A stretch of 64,000 nucleotides of DNA from Oscillospiraceae bacterium (GTDB taxonomy: Bacteria; Bacillota; Clostridia; Oscillospirales; UBA644): contig SVMT01000003.1 in the NCBI GenBank assembly GCA_015067305.1, forward strand, positions 55,972 through 119,971. Reading direction: 5' to 3'. The notes under the pieces are model-generated. The model did no database searches and was not told where the DNA came from. It saw only the letters and a list, made by a program, of their open reading frames with translations. Positions 5,849 to 44,038 of the stretch are shown piece by piece. How positions within the stretch are numbered: position 1 is the first letter of the stretch; each line of letters opens with the position of its first letter. Made by a program: the position numbers and the translations under genes.

Positions 5849-6619
5849 TCACAGATTTTTTAATTCTGTATCAAATAAAGTCTTTATCAGTTCATTGATA
5901 GATCGCTTGTTTTCGGAATAACTGAAATACGAAATAAACTCTGTATTACCGTCTCCGCCTTTGATTGGAGAAACTGAAATACCATTCAAATTCAAACCAT
6001 ACCTTAAAAACTCTTCAGCAACATTGGAGATAACAGTTTTATATTGACTTTTATCTTTTACTATACCACTCTTATTTGTTTTGGCATTTTCAAATTGAGG
6101 CTTGATCAAACATATCAAATGAGTTGGCTTAAATTCAGCTATCTTATATGCAATCTTTTCAAGTGAAATAAAAGAAACGTCAACAACTATAATATCTACA
6201 GGATCAAAATCTGCAGGATCACAATCTTTTATATTTGTATTTTCAAGATTTACTACCCTATCATCATTTACAAGTTTTTCTGCAAGCTGACCATGTCCAA
6301 CATCTATGGAATATACTTTTGTAGCACCATTTTGAAGTAAACAATCAGTAAAACCGCCTGTTGAAGCACCAATATCCATCGCAATCGTGTCTTTAATATT
6401 TAAACCAAATACATTGATTGCTTTTTCAAGCTTAAGCCCACCACGTCCGACATATTTTAAATAATCGTTTATTTCAATGGAAACTTTTTCACATACTTCT
6501 AAAGAAGCTTTATTTACAACTGTTCCGTCAATAAAAACACAACCCTCTTTGATCAATGCCTGTGCATACTGACGGCTTTTTAATGAAAACTTTTCCTGAA
6601 TGTATTTATCTAATCTCAT
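5849..6619 (-). CDS. tlyA: TlyA-family rRNA 2'-O-methyltransferase
   Basis: S4 RNA-binding domain at about residues 1-60 (MRLDKYIQEKFSLKSRQYAQ) fused to an FtsJ-like SAM methyltransferase. The family linker YVGRGGLKLEKA is followed by the SAM-binding motif MDIGASTGGFTDCLLQNGA. DIIVVDVSFISLEKI and LIKPQFE complete the fold. This is the TlyA/YqxC family; the M. tuberculosis homologue methylates 16S and 23S rRNA, and I infer the same role here. Its ATG overlaps the oapA stop (ATGA), so the two are probably translationally coupled. tlyA directly after oapA is part of the known OLE operon context. Confidence 0.93.
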   Translation of the reverse strand: MRLDKYIQEKFSLKSRQYAQALIKEGCVFIDGTVVNKASLEVCEKVSIEINDYLKYVGRGGLKLEKAINVFGLNIKDTIAMDIGASTGGFTDCLLQNGATKVYSIDVGHGQLAEKLVNDDRVVNLENTNIKDCDPADFDPVDIIVVDVSFISLEKIAYKIAEFKPTHLICLIKPQFENAKTNKSGIVKDKSQYKTVISNVAEEFLRYGLNLNGISVSPIKGGDGNTEFISYFSYSENKRSINELIKTLFDTELKNL

Positions 6620-7218
6620 TTTTTATTTTTACTGAAGAATCTTTCCGGAACAATAAAACATAGTATCCTTCCGGCAATATATATTATGTTTTCGCAATAA
6701 TTCATAGCAAAATTCTTACCCAATGCCTTACCTCCAATGGTAAGAGCCGCATTAAAAGCAGTCATAAGCATCGCAGAAAGTATTTCAGGAATCGGCAGAA
6801 CAGCTGAAATTTCAACAGCTATTACTGCAGTCATCGTACCACTGATGATACCGCAAATATCGCCGACGACATCATTGCAAATATTTGATACCGTAGAAGC
6901 TTTAGTTACAAGATACAGACAAGCCTTTGCCCCTACGACCTTTCTGGCCGCCATTGAATTAAATGGCTTGGGGTCTGCGGCAGTTACAGCTGTACCAAGA
7001 AGGTCGAAAAGAATTCCCAAAAAAATAAACAGCAAAAGCAAGATAAAAGCGATAACAACATTTACTTCACTGAGTGCACTTTTTGAAATATATGATAAAG
7101 TCGCCGAAATACAGAACGACAACACCATTACTTTTATGACCCATGAATGATTACCGTTGCTCTTTTTTGTATCCTTTTGCTGCTTTTTAGGTCGGGGGGA
7201 ATTATCTGAATTTTCCAA
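6616..7218 (-). CDS. oapA: OLE-associated membrane protein OapA (predicted)
   Basis: Integral membrane protein, 200 aa (about 21 kDa) from a TTG at 7218 that has AAAGGTG six bases upstream. The ORF track's extension to 7326 runs into the structured RNA and has no ribosome site, so I reject it. There is a short basic N-terminus (PRPKKQQKDTKK). About four hydrophobic segments follow (VMVLSFCISATLSYIS, VVIAFILLLLFIFLGILFDLL, ICGIISGTMTAVIAVEI, ILSAMLMTAFNAALTIGG), then a basic tail. A DxxxD motif (NDVVGD, D116/D120) is present; I recall such a motif as functionally important in OapA. Size, topology, position immediately 3' of the putative OLE RNA and coupling to tlyA all match OapA. Known role of the family: it binds OLE RNA and places it at the membrane. 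The identification rests mostly on context. Confidence 0.85.
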   Translation of the reverse strand: MENSDNSPRPKKQQKDTKKSNGNHSWVIKVMVLSFCISATLSYISKSALSEVNVVIAFILLLLFIFLGILFDLLGTAVTAADPKPFNSMAARKVVGAKACLYLVTKASTVSNICNDVVGDICGIISGTMTAVIAVEISAVLPIPEILSAMLMTAFNAALTIGGKALGKNFAMNYCENIIYIAGRILCFIVPERFFSKNKK

Positions 7219-7224
7219 AACATT

Positions 7225-7875
7225 CACCTTTATGTATGATAATAAAATATAGAGATGATAATATTCAAAGTAAATCTTGCGCCTTAGGTCAAGTAGGTTT
7301 CCCCATACCCTACCTGTTGTCGCCAATCAGGCAGTTTCCTTTTGAAGGGTACGGTACCGCGTTACCGACGATACGACTTGATTGCCACTTAGAACGCACT
7401 GCAATCCCTTGAATACAGAATAAATAATTCTCAGTCTAGGAGTTTTCCTCAACAGTATCATGATACTCTTAGTCTCTTTTGCAGATATGATTTCTTAACG
7501 CAAAGCACTATATACTGTGGCCGCAGTATATAGCCCGAACCGTTATCCGCCATATCCACTCAAGACAGGCTACTCTGCATACAACCGAACTCATACATCA
7601 GCACTTCTAATGCTGATGCGTAAATTGCTTCAAAGAGAACGACCGCATTGCAGGTTCAATCCTGAGTCGTGGTAAGCAAATCCACAAGTACAGGTCTCCG
7701 TGAGTGAAGGGACATTAACTGTATGCCATTACAGATGCCCGGCACTCTACCTTCCAGCACCCACCCCAGACTGGGCGTAAGAAGCAAGCACAAGAAGTTT
7801 CATCGATATGCCCTTCGGTTGATTTTTAGGCCAACCCTGGTAGTCCACAATACCGACTAGAATACTGTATCATCA
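7225..7875 (-). ncRNA. ole: OLE RNA (ornate, large, extremophilic)
   Basis: About 650 bases with no ORF above 60 codons apart from an implausible N-terminal extension of oapA. Many strong hairpins are visible: CTATATACTG/CAGTATATAG (7508-7533), CATCAGCA/TGCTGATG (7597-7618), GTATCATGATAC (7455-7466), and a terminal hairpin with GTAGG/CCTAC near 7290-7312. The RNA lies directly upstream of a four-TM protein of OapA size and within nusB-xseA-xseB-ispA...tlyA-nadK-argR-recN, the published OLE locus order. Published OLE RNAs are about 610 nt. The 5' end is set from the promoter at 7882-7910; the 3' end is approximate and merges into the oapA ribosome site without a terminator. tmRNA and RNase P RNA were considered and do not fit. 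The call is inference from context and size; a covariance search was not possible here. Confidence 0.85.
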
Positions 7876-7881
7876 AAGATA

Positions 7882-7910
7882 ATTATAGCATAAAAAAACG
7901 TTTTATGCAA
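7882..7910 (-). promoter_or_regulatory. SigA promoter of OLE RNA
   Basis: On the minus strand: -35 TTGCAT, 17-bp spacer, -10 TATAAT preceded by TGC (extended -10). Predicted start is near 7875. This gives the OLE RNA-oapA-tlyA block its own transcription start, in addition to any read-through from the ispA-side genes. Confidence 0.8.
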
Positions 7911-8019: not shown

Positions 8020-8472
8020 TTATTTTAAAAATAAGATCCAATACAACAATGAAATGATACAACCAAGAACACAACCCATAGCAACTTCAAGTTTAGTATG
8101 CCCCATCAACTCTTTGAATCGTTTTGATCTGATCTCAAAATTGTCAACATTCCAGTTTTCGATGATCTGGTTTATTATCTTTGCCTGTTCTCCAACTTCA
8201 TAGCGTACATTTGCCGCATCATAAACAGTAATAAACGCAAATGATGCTGCTAAAGCAAATTCAACAGAGGCAAATCCTTTCAAGATAAATATCATCGAAA
8301 CCAAAGCGGAAACCAATGCACTGTGAGAACTGGGCATACCACCCGAACCGAAAAATCTGTCCAATCGAAGTTTTCGGTCAATTATACTCTCAGCTACGCC
8401 TTTGATCGCCTGTGCAAAAAACCACCCCAAAACAGCGCAATTAAGATAATGATTCGATAAAATTCCCAACAT
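8020..8472 (-). CDS. Divergent PAP2-family (DUF212/YuiD-like) membrane protein
   Basis: 150 aa with hydrophobic segments at both ends. The family signature GGMPSSHSALVSAL lies at about residues 43-56, YDAANVRYEVGEQA at about 85-98, and ELMGHTKLEVAMGCVLG near the C-terminus. These are the conserved blocks of the DUF212 divergent PAP2 family (B. subtilis YuiD). The substrate is unknown; the PAP2 relationship and the position after ispA suggest action on a lipid or isoprenoid phosphate, which is only inference. It occupies the position often held by dxs in OLE loci. Confidence 0.85.
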   Translation of the reverse strand: MLGILSNHYLNCAVLGWFFAQAIKGVAESIIDRKLRLDRFFGSGGMPSSHSALVSALVSMIFILKGFASVEFALAASFAFITVYDAANVRYEVGEQAKIINQIIENWNVDNFEIRSKRFKELMGHTKLEVAMGCVLGCIISLLYWILFLK

Positions 8473-8492: not shown

Positions 8493-9374
8493 TCAGTTAT
8501 TTCTCGATGCCAAATATACCGCCAAGGTCTGAAGGAAACCGTTTTTATCATAAGGTTTTACAGCCTCTATCGCTTTTTGTGTATAATCTTCTACCAATTT
8601 TTGAGACTGATCCAACCCATATATATTAACAAATGTAGTTTTTTCTTCTGCGGCATCTTTACCGAGAGTTTTACCCATATCTTCAATTGTTCCCGAAACA
8701 TCAAGAATATCATCACGGATCTGGAATGCCAAACCAATATTATCAGAATATATTTCTGCTGCCTTAAAAACATCATCTGATGCGTCAGCCGCCAAACAAC
8801 CAAGTAAAGCAGAAGCTTTTAGCATTGCAGCTGTTTTCAAATTATGTATATTCAAAACTTCAGATTCAGTAAGTCCCGGCTTATTTTCAAGATCAAGGAC
8901 TTGTCCACGGACTATACCGTTTTTACCTGAGGCATCAAGAAGGATTCTGATACCTTCAATGATCTGTTTATCTGATAGACCTGTTTCATATCCGTCAGAA
9001 ATGATCCAAGAAAAAGCTTCACCGTAAAGTCCCATTGCCGCAAGAGCCGCCGTAGATTCTCCAAATACAACATGGTTCGTAGGAATTCCTCTGCGCAAAG
9101 AATCGTTATCCATAAACGGCATATCATCAAAGATAAGTGAATATGTATGAACCATTTCAAGCGCACAAGCAAAAGGTAAAGCCTTATCTGCATCATTTGA
9201 GACCATATCGCAAAATGCAAGACAGATAATAGGCCTTATTCTCTTTCCACCTGCAAAAATACTATACCTTAATGCGGAATCAAGTTTGTCACTCTTATTT
9301 TCAGGGAGATAACGTTCCAACGTACTGTTTATCTTCTCAGAATACATTTCAATATAATCATTCAACGTCTTCAT
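8493..9374 (-). CDS. ispA: Farnesyl diphosphate synthase (geranyltranstransferase)
   Basis: Head-to-tail prenyltransferase making farnesyl diphosphate from DMAPP and IPP. The first aspartate-rich region is DDMPFMDND and the second is IRDDILDVSGT. GGKRIRP, near residue 40, binds IPP. The preferred start is the ATG at 9374, nine bases after GGAGG, giving 293 aa; the track's earlier start has no ribosome site. The start overlaps the 3' end of xseB by about 17 bases, so translation is coupled. xseA-xseB-ispA is a widespread bacterial arrangement. Confidence 0.95.
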   Translation of the reverse strand: MKTLNDYIEMYSEKINSTLERYLPENKSDKLDSALRYSIFAGGKRIRPIICLAFCDMVSNDADKALPFACALEMVHTYSLIFDDMPFMDNDSLRRGIPTNHVVFGESTAALAAMGLYGEAFSWIISDGYETGLSDKQIIEGIRILLDASGKNGIVRGQVLDLENKPGLTESEVLNIHNLKTAAMLKASALLGCLAADASDDVFKAAEIYSDNIGLAFQIRDDILDVSGTIEDMGKTLGKDAAEEKTTFVNIYGLDQSQKLVEDYTQKAIEAVKPYDKNGFLQTLAVYLASRNN

Positions 9375-9588
9375 CTTCATCGACCTCCGTAACCATTTGG
9401 ATCCTTTGTTTGGCATTCTTTATTCTATCGGAACACAATTCAGCTAGTTTGGTACCTTCAGAAAAAAGTTCTAACGCTTCATCAAGTCCACATTCGCCCT
9501 TTGATAAAATCAAGTTTATTTCCTGTATGCGATTTAATGCATCTTCAAATTTTAATTCTTCAGTTTTTGATGATTTCCTCTGCGGCAC
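9358..9588 (-). CDS. xseB: Exodeoxyribonuclease VII small subunit
   Basis: 76-aa acidic protein with the XseB pattern LKFEDALNRIQEINLILSKG, then LDEALELFSEGTKLAELC, forming the two-helix small subunit that binds XseA. The C-terminus is highly acidic (DEDEDVE). It overlaps xseA by 29 bases and ispA by 17 bases, so the three are translated as a coupled block. Confidence 0.94.
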   Translation of the reverse strand: MPQRKSSKTEELKFEDALNRIQEINLILSKGECGLDEALELFSEGTKLAELCSDRIKNAKQRIQMVTEVDEDEDVE

Positions 9589-10756
9589 CTTTAACTACCC
9601 CATCTCTCATTTTCATTTCAAATTTTTCGCCTATAATAATATCATTTATACTTTTCAAAACCTTACCGTCCTTTGAGGGTAAGGCAAACCCCCTCATCAA
9701 CACCGAAAGAGGATTCAACGCTTCAAGTTTTTCACATTCATTTATTATTTCTCGCTCTTTGACATTGATCATATGCTTTATATATGAACCCAAATTAGCT
9801 TCTGCATTTTTAAACATTTGTTCTTTGGAAAAGATAACTGATGATATACTCAAGCCCGAAGAACAAATTTCTATCAGATGTTCATACTTATATACAAGAT
9901 CCTGAACAGCTCTTGCCATAGAAGTTTTTTGATATTCCAGTTCATCAAGAATTGAATCTCTGTGAGGCACGACCAATTCAGCAGCGGCAGAAGGTGTAGG
10001 GGCTCTGAGATCAGCAACAAAATCAATTATAGTAAAATCAATTTCATGTCCGACCGCACTGATTATAGGAATATCCGATTCAAAAACTGTCCAAGCAAGC
10101 TTTTCACTGTTAAACTCTATGAGATCTTCATATGAACCGCCGCCACGTGTAACGATTATAACATCCACATCTTTTGTTTCATTAAAATGATTTATCGCTT
10201 CTATTACAGTTTCTGCGGCACCAAGCCCTTGAACCTGACAAGGAAACAACACCGGAACTGCTAAAGGATAACGACGCTCAAGAATACTGATAACATCAAA
10301 GAATGCAGCACCTGTCGGAGAAGTAACGATTCCAATACGTTCCGGATATTCAGGAATCGGTTTTTTATACTGAGGATCAAAGAGTCCTAATTCTTCAAGT
10401 TTATCTTTGAGCTTATTGAATGCCGCCTGATATGCCCCAATACCGTCAGGTGCAATATCTTCCGCATACAGTTGATAAGTACCGTCACGTTCATAAAGGG
10501 ATACTCGTCCCTTTACAAAAACAGAGATTCCGTCCTCCAGAAAAAAAGCAAGCCTGTCTGCATTTGATTTAAACATTACTGTTTTGATTGCAGCATTTGA
10601 ATCTTTCAAAGTAAAGTAAACATGTCCGCTTTTCAAATGTCTGGTAAAATTAGATATCTCACCTTTTACAGTCACAGAACGAAGATTCATATCACTTTCG
10701 ATAAGAGAACGTGTATACATATTCAATTGTGAAACTGTAAGCGGTTTAGGATTCAT
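9560..10756 (-). CDS. xseA: Exodeoxyribonuclease VII large subunit
   Basis: Catalytic subunit of the single-strand exonuclease. The N-terminal OB fold spans about 1-100 (VKGEISNFTRHLKSGHVYFTLKD). The catalytic domain has RIGIVTSPTGAAFFDVI, VIIVTRGGGSYEDL, and SAVGHEIDFTIIDFVADLRAPTPSAAAE. A coiled coil and C-terminal domain follow. The 398-aa length is slightly short but within range. The start overlaps the stop of the TsaD-like gene by ATGA. Confidence 0.96.
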   Translation of the reverse strand: MNPKPLTVSQLNMYTRSLIESDMNLRSVTVKGEISNFTRHLKSGHVYFTLKDSNAAIKTVMFKSNADRLAFFLEDGISVFVKGRVSLYERDGTYQLYAEDIAPDGIGAYQAAFNKLKDKLEELGLFDPQYKKPIPEYPERIGIVTSPTGAAFFDVISILERRYPLAVPVLFPCQVQGLGAAETVIEAINHFNETKDVDVIIVTRGGGSYEDLIEFNSEKLAWTVFESDIPIISAVGHEIDFTIIDFVADLRAPTPSAAAELVVPHRDSILDELEYQKTSMARAVQDLVYKYEHLIEICSSGLSISSVIFSKEQMFKNAEANLGSYIKHMINVKEREIINECEKLEALNPLSVLMRGFALPSKDGKVLKSINDIIIGEKFEMKMRDGVVKGAAEEIIKN

Positions 10757-13576: not shown

Positions 13577-14026
13577 CTATTCATTTAGTTTGGAAATATA
13601 AACTTTACCTGTCAATTCAAGTTTCCTTTCAGCAAAATCCAGAATTTCTACAAGAGGAATATCAGCATCGACCGCAATAGTTATTTTCTGTATTTCATAA
13701 CCTTGTTCTCTCCAAAAGCCTTTAACCTTTACTTCAAGTTCCCTTACGGGAAATTCCTCTATTATGATTTTTTTCACATTATCACATATCAGCTCCTCAA
13801 TAACACTATCTACAATATCAGAACTATTATAGATTATTGATCCATCAGAATTACTGTAACTGAAATCTATGTTATTTAAATCCGAGGTAAAAGATATTAT
13901 AAATATAACTATTATCAAAGAACTCAAAGCTCTGATATTTCCTTTAAACTTATCACTGACAATTATTGACGACAATAGTGCTGTTCCGAAAGATACGGTG
14001 ATAAGAGATGATATAACTTCTTTCAT
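13577..14026 (-). CDS. spoIIIAF: Stage III sporulation protein AF
   Basis: 149 aa. Two N-terminal membrane segments (SLITVSFGTALLSSIIV and ALSSLIIVIFIISFTSDL) and a soluble C-terminal domain with EEFPVRELEVKVKGFWREQGYEIQKI. Position between spoIIIAE and spoIIIAG confirms the identity; sequence similarity alone is moderate. Part of the mother-cell sporulation transenvelope complex. Confidence 0.88.
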   Translation of the reverse strand: MKEVISSLITVSFGTALLSSIIVSDKFKGNIRALSSLIIVIFIISFTSDLNNIDFSYSNSDGSIIYNSSDIVDSVIEELICDNVKKIIIEEFPVRELEVKVKGFWREQGYEIQKITIAVDADIPLVEILDFAERKLELTGKVYISKLNE

Positions 14027-14029
14027 AAT

Positions 14030-15130
14030 CTATGAGACCTTTATTATAAAATAGAACAAGAGAACCGTCAATATAGTAACCGACAATGAGACACAAATCA
14101 AAATTGAAACGAGATCACGTACAGTATTTATAAATTCACTTAACCTGAAATTCTCAAAAAAACTCAAAACAAAGCAAACAACAGATAATACAAAAAACAG
14201 GATCAAAAGTTCAGAGATAGGAGCCAGGGACAATATAACTGATACAGTAATACCAAGAATTCCTATACTGTTTTTTACCCCGACAGCTGTAGTAAAAAAA
14301 GTATCAAGGCCATCTGAAACAAAACCGCCGAGAACAGGAAATCCTGATGAAACGATCTGTTTTACAGTTTTCTTGAATAACGTGTCTTTATTCATTGAAA
14401 TAACGGACTGTACAGACATGAGACCGCTGAAAAAAGACAAGAAAACAGCCAATATACTTATCAGAAAATTTCTGATAAAAACAGAAATTCTTCTGAGATT
14501 GAAATCTCCTGTCATCCCACCACTCATAGCCAAGGCTAAGTATGTATTCGAGAACGGAAACACAAAAGCATTACAAATATGATTATAGACAGAAACAAAA
14601 ACTGTACAAATTGAACCAAGGACCGTTGCTGTCCCTGCATAACCGGATGCTGACATTGAAGCCAATGCAGATACTGATACTGAAGAAATATAGCCTGATA
14701 TTTGAACATAACTTTCAATAAAACCGTTGATGATCTTTATCACGATTTCAAAGACAGAAATACCACATAAGAGTAAAACAACAATATCTGCAATTTCGGC
14801 TGTTTTCCCTTGGAATATATTTCCCAAAGATTGGTATATAAAAACTATGACGATAAGTAATACAAAACTCAAATATTCATTCTTATATTTAAAAAATGAT
14901 TCTGTTAACAGATCCATAAAAATTTTTATTATATTCAAATCAGACAAATAGTCATTAAAATCAATATCTTTATCAAATCCTTTTCCTGAAATCTCATAAA
15001 ACAGATCTGGAACCAAATCATATGCAGATTTTAAATCTTCATTCAATTTATCAGTAGGATTTGACAATGTCGGAACAGAAAACAGTATCAAAACAAGAAT
15101 AAAAATTACAATTTTCACACATCTTAGCAT
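14030..15130 (-). CDS. spoIIIAE: Stage III sporulation protein AE
   Basis: 366-aa polytopic membrane protein with an N-terminal signal segment (IVIFILVLILFSVPTLS) and about seven further hydrophobic stretches. The family-typical GGFVSDGLDTFFTTAVGVKNSIGILG lies in the C-terminal half, and FMDLLTESFFKYKNEYLSF precedes the first membrane block. Probable export-apparatus-like component of the SpoIIIA complex. The gene lies 15 bases after spoIIIAD. Confidence 0.93.
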   Translation of the reverse strand: MLRCVKIVIFILVLILFSVPTLSNPTDKLNEDLKSAYDLVPDLFYEISGKGFDKDIDFNDYLSDLNIIKIFMDLLTESFFKYKNEYLSFVLLIVIVFIYQSLGNIFQGKTAEIADIVVLLLCGISVFEIVIKIINGFIESYVQISGYISSVSVSALASMSASGYAGTATVLGSICTVFVSVYNHICNAFVFPFSNTYLALAMSGGMTGDFNLRRISVFIRNFLISILAVFLSFFSGLMSVQSVISMNKDTLFKKTVKQIVSSGFPVLGGFVSDGLDTFFTTAVGVKNSIGILGITVSVILSLAPISELLILFFVLSVVCFVLSFFENFRLSEFINTVRDLVSILICVSLSVTILTVLLFYFIIKVS

Positions 15131-15145
15131 TTTATTTTTTCCTAT

Positions 15146-15523
15146 TCAAAATACATTTATGGTATCCAGTATCTTATCTATTAAAGGTACGCAAAGAGAT
15201 GTAAGATATACCTTCCCAAACATTTCAGTTTTTGATGCAACGGATTCAAGCCCGCAATCCCGACACAGTTCAGATATATACTGACATAAAAATGAAGCTC
15301 CGACAGCTTTATATAAAATCGTAAAACTATGATTTCCGATATTGGAACTCATCAAATCTGAAGTAAACCCTAAAACATCTCCGACAACAGGCATAACCTG
15401 AAGTAACAAATACACTCCTAACAAAATACTTGCTATAACAGCGTATTCAGGTTTGATCTCGCGTAATGGAATAATTATAAATATTCCTACAAGTACAGAG
15501 ATCATCACGGTGTAGATACTCAT
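15146..15523 (-). CDS. spoIIIAD: Stage III sporulation protein AD
   Basis: 125 aa, four predicted membrane segments. The family has the same pattern: IIPLREIKPEYAVIASILLGV near the N-terminus and FLCQYISELCRDCGLESVASKTEMFGK in the second half. It starts 2 bases from the end of spoIIIAC. Membrane component of the SpoIIIA complex. Confidence 0.93.
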   Translation of the reverse strand: MSIYTVMISVLVGIFIIIPLREIKPEYAVIASILLGVYLLLQVMPVVGDVLGFTSDLMSSNIGNHSFTILYKAVGASFLCQYISELCRDCGLESVASKTEMFGKVYLTSLCVPLIDKILDTINVF

Positions 15524-15525
15524 AG

Positions 15526-15720
15526 TCAGATTCTAAACGTCAAACGGATCGTATCAAAAAGTCTTCCGACCTCGCCGATTATCATTATCATAACCATAAC
15601 AAGCCCTGCTATAGTTACCATCAATGCATGTTCTCCATGGTCTGTTTTTGCAAGCAACTGATTCAATACTGCAACTATTATTCCAACTGCAGCTATTTGA
15701 AAAAGTATATCAGAATTCAT
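15526..15720 (-). CDS. spoIIIAC: Stage III sporulation protein AC
   Basis: 64-aa protein with two hydrophobic helices (ILFQIAAVGIIVAVLNQLL and ALMVTIAGLVMVMIMIIGEVG) joined by KTDHGEHA. Size and the family motif LLAKTDHGEHALMVTIAGLV are exact for SpoIIIAC. Confidence 0.94.
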   Translation of the reverse strand: MNSDILFQIAAVGIIVAVLNQLLAKTDHGEHALMVTIAGLVMVMIMIIGEVGRLFDTIRLTFRI

Positions 15721-15738
15721 TTTTGTTTTCCTCCGCTT

Positions 15739-16236
15739 TCAGATACATATCATTACAGCAAATAAACCTACGGCAATTCCGATTTTTACACTTACAGACC
15801 CCTTGGTTTCAAAATCCGAAACAGAATCATTTCGGTGTTTTACAAGTTCATTAATAACATTATCCAAAAGCTTTATCTGATCTTCTTCCTGAGTTTTACC
15901 CAACAAAGAAAACAAACGGTCCAAACACTGAATATCATCAACGGTCAATGAAGATGAATTCAAATAATTTGTTTTGACCTCGTCATATCTATCATATAGT
16001 TGAGTTTTTTCAGATGACGACAGATTACGGAAAAACTGCCCTAATTTTAATACTCTTTCATCATTTATTATAAGATTCAATGGGGTATTACGATAAAGTA
16101 TCTCATTTTTCACATACTCCGTAAAAATTATCATACATTCAAGTTCATCTTTCCGATTCTTAAGTTCTTGCCTTTTAATTACTCCCATTGCAGTACAGAT
16201 GACGAAGATCAAGCTCAAAAACAGACCCTTTAACAT
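15739..16236 (-). CDS. spoIIIAB: Stage III sporulation protein AB
   Basis: 165 aa from the ATG at 16236 with AAGGTG six bases upstream; the track start is a GTG three codons earlier. An N-terminal TM is followed by the conserved RQELKNRKDELECMIIFTEYVKNEILYRNTPL and a C-terminal TM (VKIGIAVGLFAVMICI). The family resembles the type II secretion protein GspF. It overlaps spoIIIAA by about 62 bases, more than usual. Confidence 0.92.
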   Translation of the reverse strand: MLKGLFLSLIFVICTAMGVIKRQELKNRKDELECMIIFTEYVKNEILYRNTPLNLIINDERVLKLGQFFRNLSSSEKTQLYDRYDEVKTNYLNSSSLTVDDIQCLDRLFSLLGKTQEEDQIKLLDNVINELVKHRNDSVSDFETKGSVSVKIGIAVGLFAVMICI

Positions 16237-17146
16237 CACATTCACCTTTTAAATATTTCACTTCATTGACCTTACCCATATCATATGAAACTACTACATC
16301 AACAGCTTTGATATCAATCAGCTTACGGACTACAGGCCTGCTCAACAACTCATTCAAACTCTTAGCATGTGCCGATGTTATGAAACTAACTCCGCAGTTT
16401 AATGTCGTTGCGATAGCTTCAGCCTCTAAGGAATTTCCCAACTCATCAAAAACAATTACATCCGGAGAAAGAGTTCTTACTGCACGCTCTATCCCCTCTG
16501 CTTTAGGAAAACCGTCAAGAACATCACAGTAACCAATATCAAATGTAGAATAACCGCAACTTTGTGCAGCTATCTCATGACGTTCATCGATGATCGAAAC
16601 TTTAAACCCCATTTTGGAAAGCTTACAGGCTGCATCACGCAAAACAGTAGTTTTACCTCTTCCAGGCGGTGAAGCTATTATAGTATTCAAAACAGATCCA
16701 TTAACAAGGATTTTTGGAAACAATGTATTTGAACAACCTATATACTCCTGCGCAATTCTGAAAAACAACCCATTGATCTCTTTCATGCCAACAATTTCGC
16801 CATTCTTCATAACTGCTGAACCACTTAATCCAACACGATGTCCGCCATCTGCAATAACATAACAATTTATGATCTGTTCATTATAAGCATAAACACTTTC
16901 ACAAGTAAGCATATTATATGTATATTCAACATCTTCCGCATAAACAATAACTCCCTCAGAAAGATCCGTCAATTTATTTTTCATTGAAACAGAATACAGC
17001 TTATTGCTAACCAATACAATGATTGGACACATTGTCTTCAAACGGATCTCTCTTATATGCTCAAGAATACCGATCTCCATATTTAAAAAAATATTGCGTA
17101 ACCTCAAAGGCATATATTTTATTATTTCTGCTATACTGCAATTCAT
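16175..17146 (-). CDS. spoIIIAA: Stage III sporulation protein AA (secretion ATPase-like)
   Basis: About 323 aa; first gene of the operon. AAA/secretion-type ATPase: Walker A ASPPGRGKTTVLRD, then VSIIDERHEIAA, Walker B DVIVFDELGNSLEAEAI and SFITSAHAKSLNELLSRP. An N-terminal domain with YAYNEQIINCYVIADGGHRVGLSG precedes the ATPase core. It powers the SpoIIIA apparatus. Start could be 17155 or 17146; the latter has GAGGA nine bases upstream. In B. subtilis the operon is driven by SigE; I could not place a convincing SigE promoter here. Confidence 0.94.
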   Translation of the reverse strand: MNCSIAEIIKYMPLRLRNIFLNMEIGILEHIREIRLKTMCPIIVLVSNKLYSVSMKNKLTDLSEGVIVYAEDVEYTYNMLTCESVYAYNEQIINCYVIADGGHRVGLSGSAVMKNGEIVGMKEINGLFFRIAQEYIGCSNTLFPKILVNGSVLNTIIASPPGRGKTTVLRDAACKLSKMGFKVSIIDERHEIAAQSCGYSTFDIGYCDVLDGFPKAEGIERAVRTLSPDVIVFDELGNSLEAEAIATTLNCGVSFITSAHAKSLNELLSRPVVRKLIDIKAVDVVVSYDMGKVNEVKYLKGECDVKGSVFELDLRHLYCNGSN

Positions 17147-17243
17147 AACGATCATTCCTCACCTAAATTATAATCAACTCGTCCTTAATACAGTCTATTA
17201 GTGAAAATATAATAATATTACTATAAAAAAACTAAAAATCGTC

Positions 17244-17272
17244 TTGACAACTTCAAATCATTATGATAAAAT
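17244..17272 (+). promoter_or_regulatory. SigA promoter of the apbE operon
   Basis: TTGACA, 17-bp spacer, TAAAAT. Predicted start near 17279, leaving a leader of about 45 bases before apbE. Confidence 0.8.
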
Positions 17273-17298: not shown

Positions 17299-17325
17299 GT
17301 GAAAGAACACGCTGTGATAATATAA
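17299..17325 (+). other. Possible 8-codon leader peptide coupled to apbE
   Basis: GGAGG at 17288-17292 is the only good ribosome site in the leader. It stands six bases before a GTG that opens an eight-codon frame (VKEHAVII) whose TAA overlaps the apbE ATG as TAATG. apbE has no strong ribosome site of its own, so termination-reinitiation coupling is plausible. It could also be chance. Confidence 0.4.
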
Positions 17326-18341
17326 TGAAAAAAATTATTTCTTTAATTACGGTTATTGTTTTGTTAATGTCAACTTCTTGCACAAAACCAACATTCACAA
17401 AAGATTATTGGGTTATGGATACATATTGCACTGTAACTTTGTATGAAGGAGTATCTAAGGAAACAACGAAGATCGTTTCGGATATACTTAATGATTGCGA
17501 AGAAAGATTACTGATAAAAGATGATTCAAAATCATTTTTCGCTGAAACCGACAACTGTAGTATTCCTATACAAAATGATATTTACGAAATGCTTGAATTA
17601 TGTCTGAAAGTTTCTGATTTATCAGACGGAAAGTTTGACATAACAATAGCGCCACTCTCAGTACTTTGGGATATTCAAAACAGAAAAATGCCGCCTGAAA
17701 AAACGGATATCTATGAAGCCAAAAAACTTGTTGACCATAATAACATAATACTTACAGAAAACAGTTTAACCTTATTGAAAGAAGATACAGGAATTGATAT
17801 TGGTGCTGTAGGAAAAGGTTATGCGGGAGACAGAACTGCTGAATTGCTGAAAGAAAAAGGGTTCAACTCCGGATTATTGAATCTCGGTGGCAACATCACT
17901 GTCTTCGGAGAGAATCCAAACAGAGATGACGGTTATTTTATTATCGGTATAAAAGACCCCGTAAATACTTCATCGGTCTATGCCTCGTTAAAGATCCAAA
18001 ACACCAACATGGTAACCGCAGGAGGATACGAAAGGTATTTCGAATTCGAAGATCAGATATATCACCATATAATCGATCCCGAGACAGGTTACCCTGCAAA
18101 CAGCGGTATCAAAAGTTCAACAATTGTCTGTGAAAACGGAATTATAGCCGATGCCTTAGCTACTGCAATTTATGTAACAGGAGCTGAAAAAGGTATTGAG
18201 ATGTTAACTGTATTGAAAAATGAATACCCGAATATCGCCGCAGTTTTATACACAGACGATGGAAATATCATAACTTTCAACATAGCAAATTACGAGTTTA
18301 CCACATATAATTTTAATGGAGAAATATCATATTATGAGTAA
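17325..18341 (+). CDS. apbE: FAD:protein FMN transferase (ApbE lipoprotein)
   Basis: Attaches FMN covalently to Thr residues of secreted flavoproteins, outside the membrane. The 338-aa protein begins with a lipoprotein signal (IISLITVIVLLMSTSC, Cys about residue 22). Family motifs: TYCTVTLYEG, DIGAVGKGYAGDRTAELL, GLLNLGGNITVFG, and YHHIIDPETGYPANSGIKSSTIVCENGIIADALATA (FAD-binding and catalytic Asp). The ATG at 17325 is chosen because the signal peptide begins there; the track's upstream extension runs into the promoter. First gene of a seven-gene operon with a NusG_II protein and a Gx transporter, a set associated with flavin-based extracellular redox functions. Confidence 0.95.
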   Translation: MKKIISLITVIVLLMSTSCTKPTFTKDYWVMDTYCTVTLYEGVSKETTKIVSDILNDCEERLLIKDDSKSFFAETDNCSIPIQNDIYEMLELCLKVSDLSDGKFDITIAPLSVLWDIQNRKMPPEKTDIYEAKKLVDHNNIILTENSLTLLKEDTGIDIGAVGKGYAGDRTAELLKEKGFNSGLLNLGGNITVFGENPNRDDGYFIIGIKDPVNTSSVYASLKIQNTNMVTAGGYERYFEFEDQIYHHIIDPETGYPANSGIKSSTIVCENGIIADALATAIYVTGAEKGIEMLTVLKNEYPNIAAVLYTDDGNIITFNIANYEFTTYNFNGEISYYE

Positions 18342-19251
18342 AAGCATAAAAGTATCTGTTTTTATACTTCAGGTATTATTGTTAATATCGTGCTCTTCAA
18401 ACGCCGCATTGGTAATGCCCTTTGAGGCAACATTTCACAAATTCGTATACACCTTGACTAAAGATCTGGAACAGATAGATTATTCAAATGATGCAGAATA
18501 CTTCACTCTGTGCGAAAGCAGTAATTATGCAGTAGCTATAAAAGAAGGAACTCTCGCATTTATTGACAAAGAAAATGAAGTCTTCATCGACACTTTTGGG
18601 AACGAACACTCAAATATGCCCGAGTCAGGATTAAATATTCGAATAACACAAGGTTCAGATTACGAACTCACATATAAAACAAGCCGATATTATAACTCCG
18701 AAACAGACGAACATATTGACTCTTTAACTGCTTTCAAACTCAATGAAAACACCGTAAGATTACTTATAATAACAGGTATTGATGAGTTCCAGATAATTGA
18801 CAAAATACCGATTGTTTTACCTCCAGAATTTGTTTCAGGTGATCCAAACCTCAAACAGTATTATTCCAATGAACCTCAAGCAAAAGAAAAAGCTTTGAGC
18901 CTGTATCCTTTACTTGCAGAGCGTTTTGATCTGCAAGACAATCTTTACTACCTCACCCAAGCCATCCCTGACAGCGAATTTGAAAGCCTTGGATTCACCA
19001 AGAATACAGCACGAGAGATCGCGCTTCAATTAAACTATGATTATTCGGCTGTTAAAATGATTTTAACAGTAGTTGATATAACCGTAAATGATGACGGCAT
19101 AATTTTTGATATAAGTAAAAACAGACAATTCAGATCTGAACTTATCAGAGACAAAAGCTTCAAGCATGAAATCTTTGAATTCGATATTGACTTTGTCGAA
19201 AAGACCGCATCTGAAAGCCCAAAGATAACTAACGCACAGAGTAAATACTGA
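18334..19251 (+). CDS. Putative lipoprotein of unknown function
   Basis: About 305 aa. The N-terminal signal SVFILQVLLLISCSSNA has a good lipobox (LISC). The rest is a soluble extracellular domain without motifs I recognise; it is rich in Asp, Glu, Tyr and Ile. It overlaps apbE by 8 bases and its stop overlaps the start of the NusG_II gene, so it is made as part of the same unit. A role in the extracellular flavin or redox system is suggested only by position. No FMN-attachment motif (D-x-x-S/T-G-A-T/S) is evident in it. Confidence 0.8.
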   Translation: MSKSIKVSVFILQVLLLISCSSNAALVMPFEATFHKFVYTLTKDLEQIDYSNDAEYFTLCESSNYAVAIKEGTLAFIDKENEVFIDTFGNEHSNMPESGLNIRITQGSDYELTYKTSRYYNSETDEHIDSLTAFKLNENTVRLLIITGIDEFQIIDKIPIVLPPEFVSGDPNLKQYYSNEPQAKEKALSLYPLLAERFDLQDNLYYLTQAIPDSEFESLGFTKNTAREIALQLNYDYSAVKMILTVVDITVNDDGIIFDISKNRQFRSELIRDKSFKHEIFEFDIDFVEKTASESPKITNAQSKY

Positions 19252-19625
19252 TGGAAAACAAAATTAAAATCTGCGATCTCATATTTATCGCAATTCTTAT
19301 AATTATAGTTATCATTTCTTCAATTCTGATTTTTGCGATCAATTCAAAAGAGATTGGAAACAATGCAAAAGTCTATATTGAAGTAAACGGATCTCAACAT
19401 TCAGTTGTTCCGTTGAGTGAAGATACTGAAATAAATATAGAAAATGTCGGAACTGTAATAATTGAAGATAGTAAAGTTCGCATTGAAAATGCTTTATGTA
19501 ACGACAAAGTTTGTGAGCATATGGGGGAAATATCGAAATCCTATCAATCTATAATTTGTCTCCCCAACAGAACAATTATAAAGATCATTTCAAACTCGGA
19601 AGAATTCGACGATATTGCGGGGTAA
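19251..19625 (+). CDS. NusG domain II-containing membrane protein (DUF1312)
   Basis: 124 aa. One N-terminal TM (LIFIAILIIIVIISSILIFAI) and an extracellular NusG_II-type beta domain. CNDKVCEHMGEISKSYQSIICLPNRTIIKI matches the family pattern C-x4-C-x2-x-G-I/W-I. Proteins of this type are encoded beside Gx transporters and ApbE in many anaerobes; as I recall, the Listeria extracellular electron transfer pair EetA/EetB has this make-up. Overlaps the next ORF's upstream region. Confidence 0.85.
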   Translation: MENKIKICDLIFIAILIIIVIISSILIFAINSKEIGNNAKVYIEVNGSQHSVVPLSEDTEINIENVGTVIIEDSKVRIENALCNDKVCEHMGEISKSYQSIICLPNRTIIKIISNSEEFDDIAG

Positions 19626-19629
19626 ACAA

Positions 19630-20151
19630 ATGAACAGAAGAGAAAAAATCGTATACACCGCAATTCTCACAGCGACAGCGTTGATATTAGCATATGTCGA
19701 ATCAATTATATCGTTTGGAGTTATATTACCGGGGGTCAAGCTCGGATTATCCAATATTTCAGTTGTTGTAGCACTTTATACCATAGGTTTTCCATATGCA
19801 GTAGTTATCGGAATTTTAAAATGTTTTATATCTTTGATGATATTCGGCAGGCTGTCAGGACTATTCTATTCTCTTTCAGGAATTATTCTGGCAATCATAA
19901 CAATGTATTTACTGAAAAAAATAAAACATCTTTCACTTTTATCTGTCAATATAGGTGGCTCATTCTTTCATATTATCGGTCAACTGATTGCAGCATCTGT
20001 TATGCTTGGAAGTTCAGATGTCTGGACCCTGTTCCCTTTATTGGGAGCACTTTCAATCGTTTCAGGTGCAATAACTTATATACCGGAGCATATAACTTTA
20101 AATACTATTTTAAAAATCAAAACAAAAAGAGGTAAATTAAATGTTGAATGA
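19630..20151 (+). CDS. Gx transporter family protein (heptaprenyl diphosphate synthase component I-like)
   Basis: 173 aa, about five membrane segments. KIVYTAILTATALILAYVES at the N-terminus, then LPGVKLGLSNISVVVALYTIGFPYAVVIGILKCFISLMIFGR, which is the signature of pfam07456. The family is often mis-named as a heptaprenyl synthase component. Start at 19630 (MNRREK) is preferred over the track start five codons earlier. Probably works with the NusG_II protein encoded just upstream. Confidence 0.88.
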   Translation: MNRREKIVYTAILTATALILAYVESIISFGVILPGVKLGLSNISVVVALYTIGFPYAVVIGILKCFISLMIFGRLSGLFYSLSGIILAIITMYLLKKIKHLSLLSVNIGGSFFHIIGQLIAASVMLGSSDVWTLFPLLGALSIVSGAITYIPEHITLNTILKIKTKRGKLNVE

Positions 20152-20692
20152 AATCAAAAGTACAGCTCTTACAGCAATTAAAGAGCTTGTTGAAATTGCA
20201 AAGCTTGAAAAAGGTGATATTTTGATCGTTGGATGTTCTTCAAGCGAGATGCTGGGCGAAAAAATAGGTTCACACTCAAGCATAGAAGCTGCAGAAGCCG
20301 CATTTGAAGGTATTTATCCATATCTCAAGGAAAGAGGAATATTCCTTGCTACACAATGCTGTGAACATCTGAACAGAGCAATAATCATTGAAAAAGAAGC
20401 TGCAAAAAAATACGGTTATGATATAGTAAATGTTGTTCCTCAACCTAAAGCAGGCGGATCATTTTCCACTACAGCATATAAGAATTTCAAAGAACCCGTT
20501 GCAGTTGAAAATATTAAGGCGCAAGCAGGAATCGATATTGGTGGTACACTTATCGGTATGCATCTTGCACCCGTTGCTGTCCCTGTACGCCTCTCAGTCA
20601 ATAAAATCGGAATGGCAAATATAATTTGCGCTAGAACAAGACCAAAGTTTATTGGCGGTTCACGCGCCGTATACAATGAAGAACTTCTTTAA
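20141..20692 (+). CDS. ywlG: UPF0340 / YwlG family protein (TIGR01440)
   Basis: 183-aa soluble protein. DILIVGCSSSEMLGEKIGSHSS, LATQCCEHLNRAIIIEKE, PQPKAGGSFSTTAYKNF and GIDIGGTLIGMHLAPVAVPVR are the conserved blocks of the family. Biochemical function is unknown. Starts with an ATG inside the end of the Gx gene after AGAGGTAAATTAA. Confidence 0.92.
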   Translation: MLNEIKSTALTAIKELVEIAKLEKGDILIVGCSSSEMLGEKIGSHSSIEAAEAAFEGIYPYLKERGIFLATQCCEHLNRAIIIEKEAAKKYGYDIVNVVPQPKAGGSFSTTAYKNFKEPVAVENIKAQAGIDIGGTLIGMHLAPVAVPVRLSVNKIGMANIICARTRPKFIGGSRAVYNEELL

Positions 20693-20710
20693 TCAGGAGG
20701 TAAATTATAA

Positions 20711-21013
20711 ATGAAAAAATTTATTATCATAATCTGTTCATTACTGATGACATTTTGTACAAGCTTTAATATGATTGCAAATGAGCCTGAAAATCAACCC
20801 CAAGAAAATGAAATAGTATCAATCGAAAATAACATATCAGAAGAGGAAGATGTAACACCGGAGAACGAATCCACTATGAATGAAATTTCAGAACAGCAAG
20901 AAAAAGCTCAAGAAAGATTGGTTCTGATCCTCATTATCATTGGCATGGTTATTTCACTCGGTACTCTTTACACATTAAAATATATATCATACAAAAAGGA
21001 GAATAACAAATGA
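20711..21013 (+). CDS. Small secreted/membrane protein, unknown function
   Basis: 100 aa after a strong AGGAGG site. An N-terminal signal-like segment (IIIICSLLMTFCTSFNMIA) and a C-terminal TM (LVLILIIIGMVISLGTLYTL) flank an acidic linker rich in Glu and Asn. I do not recognise a family. It is co-translated with the YhhN gene (ATGA overlap at 21010). Confidence 0.75.
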   Translation: MKKFIIIICSLLMTFCTSFNMIANEPENQPQENEIVSIENNISEEEDVTPENESTMNEISEQQEKAQERLVLILIIIGMVISLGTLYTLKYISYKKENNK

Positions 21014-21636
21014 GCTCATTCTTTAAATGGTTCGGACTCCCAGGTAGTTTTGTTTTAACGATCTTAATGTCACTTTTCGCCCTTGTTCTGTTTTTAGTTT
21101 TCCGTAAAAAGGATAGATTCATCTGCTTTATAGGTATGGTTGTATCTACAATCGGTGATATCATTCTTATGAATTTCAATGATATCGGTGACTTGCTTCC
21201 CATACCCTATTTTTATGTAGGAGCAGCATTCTTTATAATAGCGCACATAATTTACACATATGCATTTTTGTCCATGATTAAAGAAAATAAATTCAAATAT
21301 GTAAATCCCGGATTTTGGGTCTCAATTACGGTATCTGCTTTAACCGGAATAATCGTAACATATCTTTACTTTACAGGATCTAACCCGAATATTGTTATGT
21401 ATATACTTTGCATGGTTTATCTTGTTATTATTGCTACAAACTGTGCAACAATATTTTCTTTCTCATACTCAGTCAAAGATTACAGATGTATAGCTGCGGT
21501 CGGCGCACTTTCATTCTTTGTTTCAGACTTATTTATCGGTCTTGATAAACTTGCAGGAATATCAACTGATTTGCTTCAGGAATGTATTTGGTGGTTTTAT
21601 CCTATTGGACAAATATTACTCCTTATTGGTGGCTAA
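21010..21636 (+). CDS. Lysoplasmalogenase (YhhN/TMEM86 family)
   Basis: 208 aa, seven to eight membrane segments. Family-typical STIGDIILMNF near residue 55, VGAAFFIIAHIIYTYAFL near 80, and VGALSFFVSDLFIGLDKL near 165. The family hydrolyses the vinyl-ether bond of lysoplasmalogens; anaerobic Clostridia make plasmalogens, so this fits. Activity is inferred from family only. Last gene of the apbE operon. Confidence 0.88.
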   Translation: MSSFFKWFGLPGSFVLTILMSLFALVLFLVFRKKDRFICFIGMVVSTIGDIILMNFNDIGDLLPIPYFYVGAAFFIIAHIIYTYAFLSMIKENKFKYVNPGFWVSITVSALTGIIVTYLYFTGSNPNIVMYILCMVYLVIIATNCATIFSFSYSVKDYRCIAAVGALSFFVSDLFIGLDKLAGISTDLLQECIWWFYPIGQILLLIGG

Positions 21637-21650
21637 TTATATTAAGTTTA

Positions 21651-21676
21651 GGGAATGTACCGTTATGTACATTCCC
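21651..21676 (+). terminator. Terminator of the apbE operon
   Basis: Perfect stem GGGAATGTAC/GTACATTCCC with a 6-base loop followed by TGTTCTTATAT. It lies between two convergent genes and may also stop transcripts of the MecA-like gene from the other side. Confidence 0.8.
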
Positions 21677-21690
21677 TGTTCTTATATGTA

Positions 21691-22296: not shown

Positions 22297-22327
22297 AAAA
22301 AGATGTCTCTTCATGAGACATCTTTTT
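22297..22327 (-). terminator. Terminator embedded in the end of the CotH gene
   Basis: Minus strand stem AAAAAGATGTCTC / GAGACATCTTTTT with a 5-base loop. The stop codon of the CotH gene lies in the loop, so the 5' arm is coding. Symmetric A and U tails make it potentially bidirectional. Confidence 0.85.
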
Positions 22328-25325
22328 CAATTTCTTCTATTTCAGTAAAATAATGATCAAAAGTAGCATCGTCAAGTTGGAATATTTGCCTGATCTCTTC
22401 CAATAATTGATCCTTACGGGTCATGCCCTTGCCATCTACATTAGTAACAAATTCAATCATTGACTGGATCTGCCAACTCCATGAAGCATAATTATACCCC
22501 CATTTATCAATGTTGCGTCTAATTTCAGGCTCAATGACAGATTTCAGTTCCATAATTTTTTCAGTAATACGATCAGCAGAAAAAGTATTATCAAGATGAT
22601 AATCAAATCTTGTAAGGAACATATCACGGAATTCCGCATTCATCAATAAAGAATTTATAAGATCCGTATTGAATTTTTTCATATATCCGGTTCCCTCAGG
22701 ATCTATCATGAACCATAGCCCATACGAAGGATCGTCTGCAAGAGCATAATCAAGGTCAAAAAGTATCCACCGCCATTTTCCGTCGATAAGATCACTCTTA
22801 TAAACCTTTGCGTTACCTGAATCTCGATTTCCGAAAAATGCCTGAGCAATTATGAAGTCCGCAAAAGATTCAACATCCATGATAGTTTTCATATATTCAT
22901 ATTTGGACGGATCACTGAGATCATAATTACGAGCGCACCATAAGAGACTGTAATAACCGTTAGGATCACCAAGAATAGCTTCTCCGTTCCCTCGTATCAT
23001 GCTGAAACTGTCACCATCAACATTATAAAGCGAAGAAAACCAATCCTCATCTATTTTTTCACGCATAAAGAATAATCCGTAATACTCGCCATTTATATAC
23101 AGAACACAAGGCTTATACGCCTGCGCTATCATATTCATATACCCCTCAGCCAAGGAAGTACATAACTCATCACGAATCATCGCTCTGCGGTAATCCTGAG
23201 ACCCTGAACGAAGGACAACAGTATCATAACGTGAAACCTCGGGACGAGTTTCAAAAAGAGGATAATATAAAGCAGACTCTCCGTATTTTTGTTTAAATTT
23301 TAACTGAAAGGACTTTTTGGCAAGTGTTCTGTTTGATTGTCCGAACAGCTTAAGCCCGCAATTTATATTAAAACTGCTCCCATCTGGTTCATACAGTTCG
23401 GCAGATGCGGCAAGTTCTATATTCTGATAAATATTAGCATCTGATGGGTAGACACCTTTTTCGTCAGGAACTCCCATTGAACACATTCCAACTTCTTCAT
23501 CCCAAAGGAGAACAGGATCAGCAGTAACACAAAGAACCGGAACGGTATGAGCCTCATTAAAAACATAACTGTAGGTTTTGATATCACTTGGAACCTGATC
23601 TTTTTTATAAGCAATGGTTTTTATTGATACCGTTTTTTCAATAGTAATAGGATCTGTATATTTCAATGAATCTTTATTTGGAATGCTTCCGTCAACCGTA
23701 TAGTAGATATCCCCTTCACCTTGTAATTCAACAAAGAAAGGGGTGGAATCGTTATAAACACCTGCAGAAACTGACGGAGTCGGAGTTTGTGTTATCTTCA
23801 GAAAACCATCGTTATTACTGTCATTAGGAGTCGGAATGTCAATATAAACAAACCAATCGTCAGAACCTCTGCCATATGAATAACCGTACGGAATATTTTT
23901 TAAGATACAACCATCGATATGATCAATATGTCCAGCATTATCCGGTTTGAAAATATAGAGACTTTCATACTCAGAATCAAGTCTGAAATTGCAATGGAAA
24001 TAAATATCCGTTGAATATTTATTCTCACCCGAAGCATACACAACATAGACTTCACCCGGAGCAAGTGTTATATGGGGAAGTTGCTGTCTCAATGGATTTT
24101 TTGTACTTGTTGCTAAATAGTATTCACTTAAAACTATAGGTTCGTTTGAATTGTTTTTCAATTCGATCCAATCATAATACTGCCCCTGATTCTGAACCAT
24201 AAACGAATCATTGTAAGTCATGACCTCATTGATTATAAGATCATTCCTCTTTTTAGTAAAATCTTTAAGAAACGATTTTATACCATTGTCATTATTAGGA
24301 TAACCGGGTGAAGGATAATCTGAAAACCTTAAACCAAGTCCGTCAGGGTCTCTTTCAAAAACAGAGTCTGATTCAAGACCCACATAAGAAACAGTATCTA
24401 TCAGAATTCCACCTTCTCGGCAAAGATAAATGTTCTCGCCTTCGCTGTCCAGATTAAATGAAAGATGAAGTTCTTCACCTGTTCTGAATTTATCCTTACC
24501 TGACGCAAATACAACGACAGACTCCCCAGATTTCAATTTTACGGACGGAAAATTCCATTTATATAAGTTTTGAGGATCATTTGATATCGTGAAATTCTCA
24601 AGGTCAACAGTTTCGTTACCGTAATTGGTAATTTCAATATAATCGGAAAAATCCCCATCTTTATCGGTGATCCAAATGGTATTTTTAGCCATGACCTCGG
24701 ATATTTTTACGGGGAAATCGTTATCGGTCCGGGATTGAATAAACATTGCTTTCCCTTCGTTGGAGTTGCTGTATCCGGGAGAAATATTTGCGCTTTCAAA
24801 AAGATTACCGTCTTCCCTGCGTTCAATTACGGAATTCTGTGACACCTCAAATGTCTGAACCCTGTCTATTACATTTCCATCTGCGTTTCTGAGATAGAAT
24901 ACTTGACCGCCTTCTTTGGAAAGTTTGAGATTAACATAATTCTTCCCCTGATTATCGCCACTGAAAAACAGGACAATATAGCCTTTTGGCTCGATTGTAA
25001 GTCCAGAAGGAAATACCCATGAAAGCTGAGATCTTTCATTATACAATTCAAAACCTTCAAGGTCAACAGTTGTATCTGTAGTATTATAAAGCTCACAATA
25101 ATCATAAAACTGACCTTTAGCATCAGGATATGCTCCGTCATTTGAAAGCATCAATTCATTAAACACAATACCCCCATAAAGAATGGTACCGTCATTTGTA
25201 ACGCCATCCTTTACGGGAGTATTATAATTTGTTGATCCGACACAAAGAACCACTGCGAGGATCAGAACAAGAGTTATGACCATCGCAATGATATATTGAA
25301 TTTTAGAATCGGATCGTTTTTTCAT
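22311..25325 (-). CDS. CotH kinase family protein with lamin-tail domains
   Basis: 1004 aa. An N-terminal TM/signal anchor (YIIAMVITLVLILAVVLCVG) leads to three lamin-tail domains at about 52-160, 205-310 and 358-470. Each has the pattern YxExxN/YN...L.GF.L...W.FP...L..G..VV.F.SG.D. A chitobiase-type C-terminal domain follows (about 515-590; IYYTVDGSIP). The CotH domain at about 590-950 contains TLAKKSFQLKFK, VLRSGSQDYRRAMIRDEL, LYINGEYYGLFFMREKID and WRWILFDLDYALAD. CotH proteins are atypical kinases; in Bacillus they phosphorylate spore coat proteins. The extracellular lamin-tail parts suggest a surface location here. The gene is followed 2 bases later by the epimerase gene's end, so both probably share a transcript. 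Confidence 0.93.
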   Translation of the reverse strand: MKKRSDSKIQYIIAMVITLVLILAVVLCVGSTNYNTPVKDGVTNDGTILYGGIVFNELMLSNDGAYPDAKGQFYDYCELYNTTDTTVDLEGFELYNERSQLSWVFPSGLTIEPKGYIVLFFSGDNQGKNYVNLKLSKEGGQVFYLRNADGNVIDRVQTFEVSQNSVIERREDGNLFESANISPGYSNSNEGKAMFIQSRTDNDFPVKISEVMAKNTIWITDKDGDFSDYIEITNYGNETVDLENFTISNDPQNLYKWNFPSVKLKSGESVVVFASGKDKFRTGEELHLSFNLDSEGENIYLCREGGILIDTVSYVGLESDSVFERDPDGLGLRFSDYPSPGYPNNDNGIKSFLKDFTKKRNDLIINEVMTYNDSFMVQNQGQYYDWIELKNNSNEPIVLSEYYLATSTKNPLRQQLPHITLAPGEVYVVYASGENKYSTDIYFHCNFRLDSEYESLYIFKPDNAGHIDHIDGCILKNIPYGYSYGRGSDDWFVYIDIPTPNDSNNDGFLKITQTPTPSVSAGVYNDSTPFFVELQGEGDIYYTVDGSIPNKDSLKYTDPITIEKTVSIKTIAYKKDQVPSDIKTYSYVFNEAHTVPVLCVTADPVLLWDEEVGMCSMGVPDEKGVYPSDANIYQNIELAASAELYEPDGSSFNINCGLKLFGQSNRTLAKKSFQLKFKQKYGESALYYPLFETRPEVSRYDTVVLRSGSQDYRRAMIRDELCTSLAEGYMNMIAQAYKPCVLYINGEYYGLFFMREKIDEDWFSSLYNVDGDSFSMIRGNGEAILGDPNGYYSLLWCARNYDLSDPSKYEYMKTIMDVESFADFIIAQAFFGNRDSGNAKVYKSDLIDGKWRWILFDLDYALADDPSYGLWFMIDPEGTGYMKKFNTDLINSLLMNAEFRDMFLTRFDYHLDNTFSADRITEKIMELKSVIEPEIRRNIDKWGYNYASWSWQIQSMIEFVTNVDGKGMTRKDQLLEEIRQIFQLDDATFDHYFTEIEEIEKDVS

Positions 25326-43872: not shown

Positions 43873-43918
43873 ATAACATTACGCAGAAAACATACGAATA
43901 TAAAATCCATATGAACAA

Positions 43919-44032
43919 AAGTTTCTTTCATCCGGACTTTAACCGTCGGCACAGGAATCTCACCTGTTCGGCACCTGAAAAGTGTTAGCGGGCTTTACCG
44001 CCGGTAGAGAATTACACTCAACCCCAAAACTT
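43919..44032 (-). promoter_or_regulatory. FMN riboswitch (RFN element)
   Basis: Minus strand shows the RFN core: CTACCGGCGGTAAAGCCCGC, then CAGGTGAGATTCCTGTGCCGACGG and TTAAAGTCCGGATGAAAGAA. The closing P1 pairs AAGTTT (44032-44027) with AAACTT (43924-43919). Followed by a terminator before ribU. Confidence 0.97.
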
Positions 44033-44038
44033 AAGTAT

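Follow-up and report, generated by a model that had tools for sequence, protein, structure and literature searches.

A flavinylation operon with an additional, genus-restricted lipoprotein gene in an Oscillospiraceae bacterium, probably serving the Rnf complex

The operon at positions 17325-21636 of the window (the whole 64,000-nucleotide stretch of DNA analysed here) most probably serves the Rnf complex as a flavinylation-maturation module, with an extra lipoprotein as a candidate accessory. Operons of this type, which export flavin and couple it to electron-transfer proteins of the membrane, are already known, and the only new piece is the lipoprotein, which is restricted to one genus. The operon is assigned here to Rnf maturation, not to an extracellular electron wire, and the lipoproteins define a small family inside a conserved flavinylation operon, confined to a single genus and known here from MAGs alone.

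Operon layout and flavin context

Seven closely spaced genes occupy 17325-21636 on the plus strand, each at the place and on the strand given in the earlier note, which had described a flavin-linked extracellular operon; the genes do form a flavin-linked operon with extracytosolic functions. The first gene, apbE (17325-18341, +), encodes an FAD:protein FMN transferase that matches PF02424 far above the curated cut-off (E = 2.6e-67, 227.6 bits versus 25.6) and has a lipobox-like LMSTSC at the N-terminus, in keeping with a secreted or lipid-anchored protein. It is the single ApbE match in the genome, located on contig C51, and a search of viral contigs for ApbE found no relative. Next come the lipoprotein gene (18334-19251, +; 305 aa, ATG at 18334, lipobox LLLISC), a gene for an EetA-like membrane protein with a NusG_II domain (19251-19625, +; PF07009, E = 4.3e-23) and a Gx transporter gene (19631-20151, +; PF07456, E = 3e-33), the product of which is an EetB-like ECF-S subunit and a putative FAD exporter. 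Downstream of these four genes lie ywlG (DUF436; 20141-20692, +; PF04260, E = 1.4e-77; TIGR01440, 219.9 bits versus a cut-off of 145.3), a gene for a 100-aa small secreted or membrane protein (20711-21013, +) that has sub-threshold Pfam and NCBIfam matches only and belongs to no convincing family, and yhhN of the lysoplasmalogenase family (21010-21636, +; PF07947, E = 1.3e-24). We take NusG_II to be EetA; the Pfam name does not appear in the text of the paper on EetB.

Start and stop codons along the operon overlap or nearly touch, with short gaps elsewhere. The apbE and lipoprotein genes overlap by 8 nt, and the lipoprotein gene ends one base inside the start of the NusG_II gene (19251). Upstream of apbE, a consensus scan identified a promoter-like site, TTGACA-17-TAAAAT (17244-17272, +; 11 of 12 matches, with TG ahead of the second hexamer), a consensus match that by itself is not evidence of function, and a terminator-like stem-loop of 12 pairs with a T-rich tail (21649-21678, +), likewise a consensus match, is located at the operon end. 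Framed by these two sites, the seven genes are presumably co-transcribed.

In Listeria, EetB, for which PF07456 serves as the definition, is an FAD-binding ECF-S subunit needed for flavinylation and for exporting flavin to FmnB, the homologue of ApbE (PMC9973259). Genomes in which its gene is colocalised number 2,169 for apbE, 3,328 for eetA and, within Clostridia, 572 for Rnf, and deletion of Listeria eetA produced no EET phenotype (PMC9973259). The PF07456 gene of the window adjoins apbE together with an eetA-like gene. The FMN riboswitch previously noted on ribU in the window is present as well (43916-44035, minus strand, 103 bits). The ECF-S gene that it immediately precedes (43267-43824) matches PF07155, the family of riboflavin transporters.

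Various other elements were identified in the window. The genes immediately before the apbE operon run in the opposite direction (13577-17155, minus strand) and by eye resemble the spoIIIA sporulation operon; one of them (13577-14026) has no Pfam match. The gene at 22311-25325 (minus strand) encodes a 1004-aa protein with Lamin Tail Domain repeats, a CotH kinase domain and Fn3_assoc/CHB_HEX_C_1 domains. An OLE RNA (7239-7889, minus strand; Rfam RF01071, 444 bits, full-length model match) lies beside a 236-aa membrane-protein ORF (6616-7326) with no Pfam match, and nearby ORFs resemble, by eye, a DUF212-type protein (8020-8472), a polyprenyl synthase (8493-9416) and xseA (9560-10756).

Conserved core and variable tail

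The lipoprotein was detected in 8 of the 59 related genomes searched, all from one genus, with about 30% identity to the window member. It co-occurs with the flavin genes in all eight, and the order apbE, lipoprotein, NusG_II, Gx/PF07456 is kept throughout. Because this order recurs in 8/8 genomes at such an identity, it is not a product of chance. These four genes are the conserved core. In the seven other lipoprotein-bearing genomes of the genus, no ywlG, small-protein or yhhN gene was detected next to it; seen there in the window only, these three genes are a tail, not part of the core. In one of the relatives, Gx is followed instead by genes for a sulfatase-family protein, a glutaredoxin-like protein (sub-threshold match) and a URO-D-like protein; a gene of this last kind is also located downstream in another relative.

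Wider searches gave the same distribution. Among 394 genomes from 168 genera of the order, the lipoprotein profile had matches in 8 genomes of one genus (E <= 1e-4), and a scan of 84,980 species genomes yielded 7 lipoprotein loci, apparently from seven of the genus genomes already counted and including goat and water-deer gut MAGs. Six loci from sister genera in the family lack the lipoprotein, with NusG_II and Gx coming straight after apbE. Across the order, PF07456 is adjacent to NusG_II in most of the 30 loci sampled, and apbE often precedes NusG_II. The simplest reading is that the ancestor of the genus gained the lipoprotein gene within an operon that it already had. At a locus from another family of the order (L081, 1836-2426, minus strand), the gene between apbE and NusG_II encodes an FMN_bind protein (47.6 bits), and the slot is therefore able to hold a likely ApbE substrate.

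Rnf as the candidate target of ApbE

The genome encodes a complete RnfCDGEAB operon on contig C63. RnfG contains the canonical [ST]GA[ST] motif as SGAT (AVSGATVTS), so that the genome does encode a predicted ApbE target protein, for which the earlier note had counted Rnf and Nqr subunits. The substrate search covered FMN_bind-domain proteins, among which RnfG is the only one in the genome. Exactly one such protein is encoded in each of the 10 genomes of the genus (10/10), within about 1.5 kb of RnfD in those with both coordinates listed. Among 197 genomes of the order, NusG_II was detected in 155 of the 182 with RnfD versus 4 of the 15 without detected RnfD (Fisher p = 2.8e-6, relatedness of the genomes ignored), and the two genes lie a few kb apart in many genomes, at a distance of about 3 kb or less in at least five of these.

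Some observations stand against this reading. The apbE module and the rnf genes are not adjacent, being on different contigs; RnfD has SAATPL, not the canonical [ST]GA[ST], at what we take to be the place where its motif is expected; and NusG_II does occur in those four genomes without detected RnfD. The lack of an EET phenotype in the Listeria eetA deletion also counts against it. Nevertheless, given the co-occurrence and the lack of any other FMN_bind protein, ApbE most likely flavinylates Rnf despite the separate contigs, and this is the best-supported function of the operon. In Firmicutes, apbE is often linked to rnf (PMC7074142).

In the mechanism that we propose, EetB (PF07456) and ECF transporter subunits would export FAD, with the EetA-like NusG_II protein assisting in this export and flavinylation module, and the lipid-anchored ApbE would transfer FMN from FAD to the SGAT motif of RnfG at the outer face of the membrane; RnfD is a probable second target. 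The lipoprotein, encoded between apbE and nusG_II and presumably transcribed with them, would most likely be a non-catalytic, membrane-anchored accessory. It might serve ApbE, EetA or Rnf as a scaffold or partner on the outer side of the membrane, or bind a ligand. The computation covers gene content, the conserved order, the restriction to one genus, the sole FMN_bind substrate and the distant homology described below; the function of EetB is taken from the literature on Listeria, and the action of ApbE on Rnf, RnfD as a target and the role of the lipoprotein are inferred.

The Listeria FLEET, or EET, locus consists of fmnB, pplA, ndh2, dmkA, dmkB, eetA and eetB. In the earlier note, the lipoprotein was cast as a component of a Gram-positive extracellular electron route, and the operon could accordingly be read as a FLEET-like locus with the lipoprotein in the place of PplA, as the flavinylated carrier of electrons to outside acceptors. 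ApbE, EetA-like and EetB-like proteins are indeed common to the Listeria cluster, and the lipoprotein is encoded together with them. However, it has no FMN_bind domain and no electron-carrier feature: 6 of the 8 members, including that of the window, lack the [ST]GA[ST] motif, which appears in the other two as TGAS at a non-conserved place, and the 8 members share no invariant cysteine besides that of the lipobox. Moreover, a Listeria-type route needs both a PplA-like protein and a demethylmenaquinone branch, and neither was detected. A PplA-like FMN_bind lipoprotein was not found among the FMN_bind proteins of the genome, and the check for dmk genes in this approximately 85% complete genome yielded a single match to DHNA prenyltransferase (UbiA/DmkA), at 15.7 bits versus a cut-off of 34.2, so that the branch is not evident. 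The electron-route reading is thus not supported and, in a genome with a complete Rnf, appears highly improbable. The presence of Rnf and the lack of a PplA-like protein fit the finding that pairs of cad (pplA-like) and apbE occur where rnf is missing (PMC7074142).

The lipoprotein and comparison with known systems

Searches of Pfam, NCBIfam and PDB sequences with the window lipoprotein and with the family alignment returned nothing over threshold, and none of the members (0/8) matched PF18952 (DUF5696). Three proteins from sister genera, each about 1000 aa long, match the lipoprotein profile weakly, and the one of these that was scanned contains DUF5696 (PF18952, 229.8 bits) from residue 304 onward. 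When the profile was compared by hhalign with eight N-terminal regions of DUF5696 proteins, the probability was 98% (E = 2.6e-13, 250 columns), or 96% with signal peptides trimmed (E = 3e-9, 196 columns), versus 1.3% (E = 0.04) for the best of 60 column shuffles and 0.2% for the reversed profile. The two align collinearly across the mature protein. Against the DUF5696 profile, the window member scored poorly (E = 0.027) and the other seven members gave E-values of 1e-8 to 6e-5, all from tiny databases and not comparable with those of library searches. The AlphaFold2 model of the lipoprotein is moderate (pLDDT 77, pTM 0.74), and Foldseek found no match for it in PDB and BFVD at E <= 0.001, with TM-scores of about 0.1. 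Because this gave nothing usable, no fold is assigned and the homology is claimed from the profile comparison, by which the lipoprotein appears distantly related to the N-terminal part of DUF5696 lipoproteins, the part not covered by Pfam.

In these genomes, full-length DUF5696 genes are found among ABC-transporter permease and Yip1 genes. At locus L084 (29-12100), the DUF5696 lipoprotein gene of the genome is surrounded by ABC-transporter permease, NHL-repeat and Yip1 genes, and three further loci are similar.

The tie of the lipoprotein to flavin would come from position and co-conservation, its only link, and our best guess at its role is an accessory of the cell envelope with a connection to flavin or Rnf. 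A role as accessory factor in flavinylation or for Rnf, whether as a scaffold or in substrate presentation or FAD handling, has in our estimate slightly less than an even chance. The conserved slot between apbE and nusG_II, the start-stop overlaps with both neighbours and the use of the same slot by an FMN_bind protein in another family all point this way, as does a strongly conserved C-terminal tail (KTxSESxxIxxAxSK), which could bind a partner and the last residues of which have low confidence in the model. Against it, the lipoprotein carries no biochemical signature, and sister genera manage without it.

The persistence of the operon without the lipoprotein in those genera is also consistent with a role unrelated to flavin, namely, that of a DUF5696-derived envelope module, for example, a polysaccharide-binding one, that entered the operon in the ancestor of the genus and was kept there for co-expression. 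The distant homology to the DUF5696 N-terminal region and the location of DUF5696 genes between ABC-transporter permease genes agree with such an origin, but the occupation of the same slot in 8/8 genomes, despite about 30% identity and changed downstream genes, does not, and we regard this explanation as plausible but somewhat improbable. The accessory role remains our slightly preferred reading. In its most specific form, in which a DUF5696-type lipoprotein was recruited as a novel accessory to ApbE-dependent flavinylation or to Rnf on the outer side of the membrane, it is tentative and rather unlikely. A lipoprotein that alters how ApbE or Rnf works would be a component of Rnf biogenesis that has so far gone unrecognised; otherwise, this would be an instance of a conserved flavin operon that has taken up a DUF5696-related domain.

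The lipoprotein resembles the DUF5696 lipoproteins, whose genes adjoin those of ABC-transporter permeases, in being collinear with their N-terminal 330-400 or so residues, but differs from them in lacking the PF18952 part, in its location in a flavin operon and in having a conserved C-terminal tail of its own. With Listeria FLEET, the operon shares genes for FmnB/ApbE, EetA-like and EetB-like proteins, whereas no PplA-like FMN_bind lipoprotein and no UbiA/DmkA were detected in this genome and Rnf is present. A further likeness is to the apbE-eetA-eetB module for flavinylation and FAD export, which is Rnf-linked in Clostridia (PMC9973259, mBio 2023): here, too, ApbE is encoded beside NusG_II and PF07456 in a genome with a complete Rnf, although Rnf is on another contig, the lipoprotein is inserted between apbE and nusG_II, and the operon additionally includes ywlG and yhhN.
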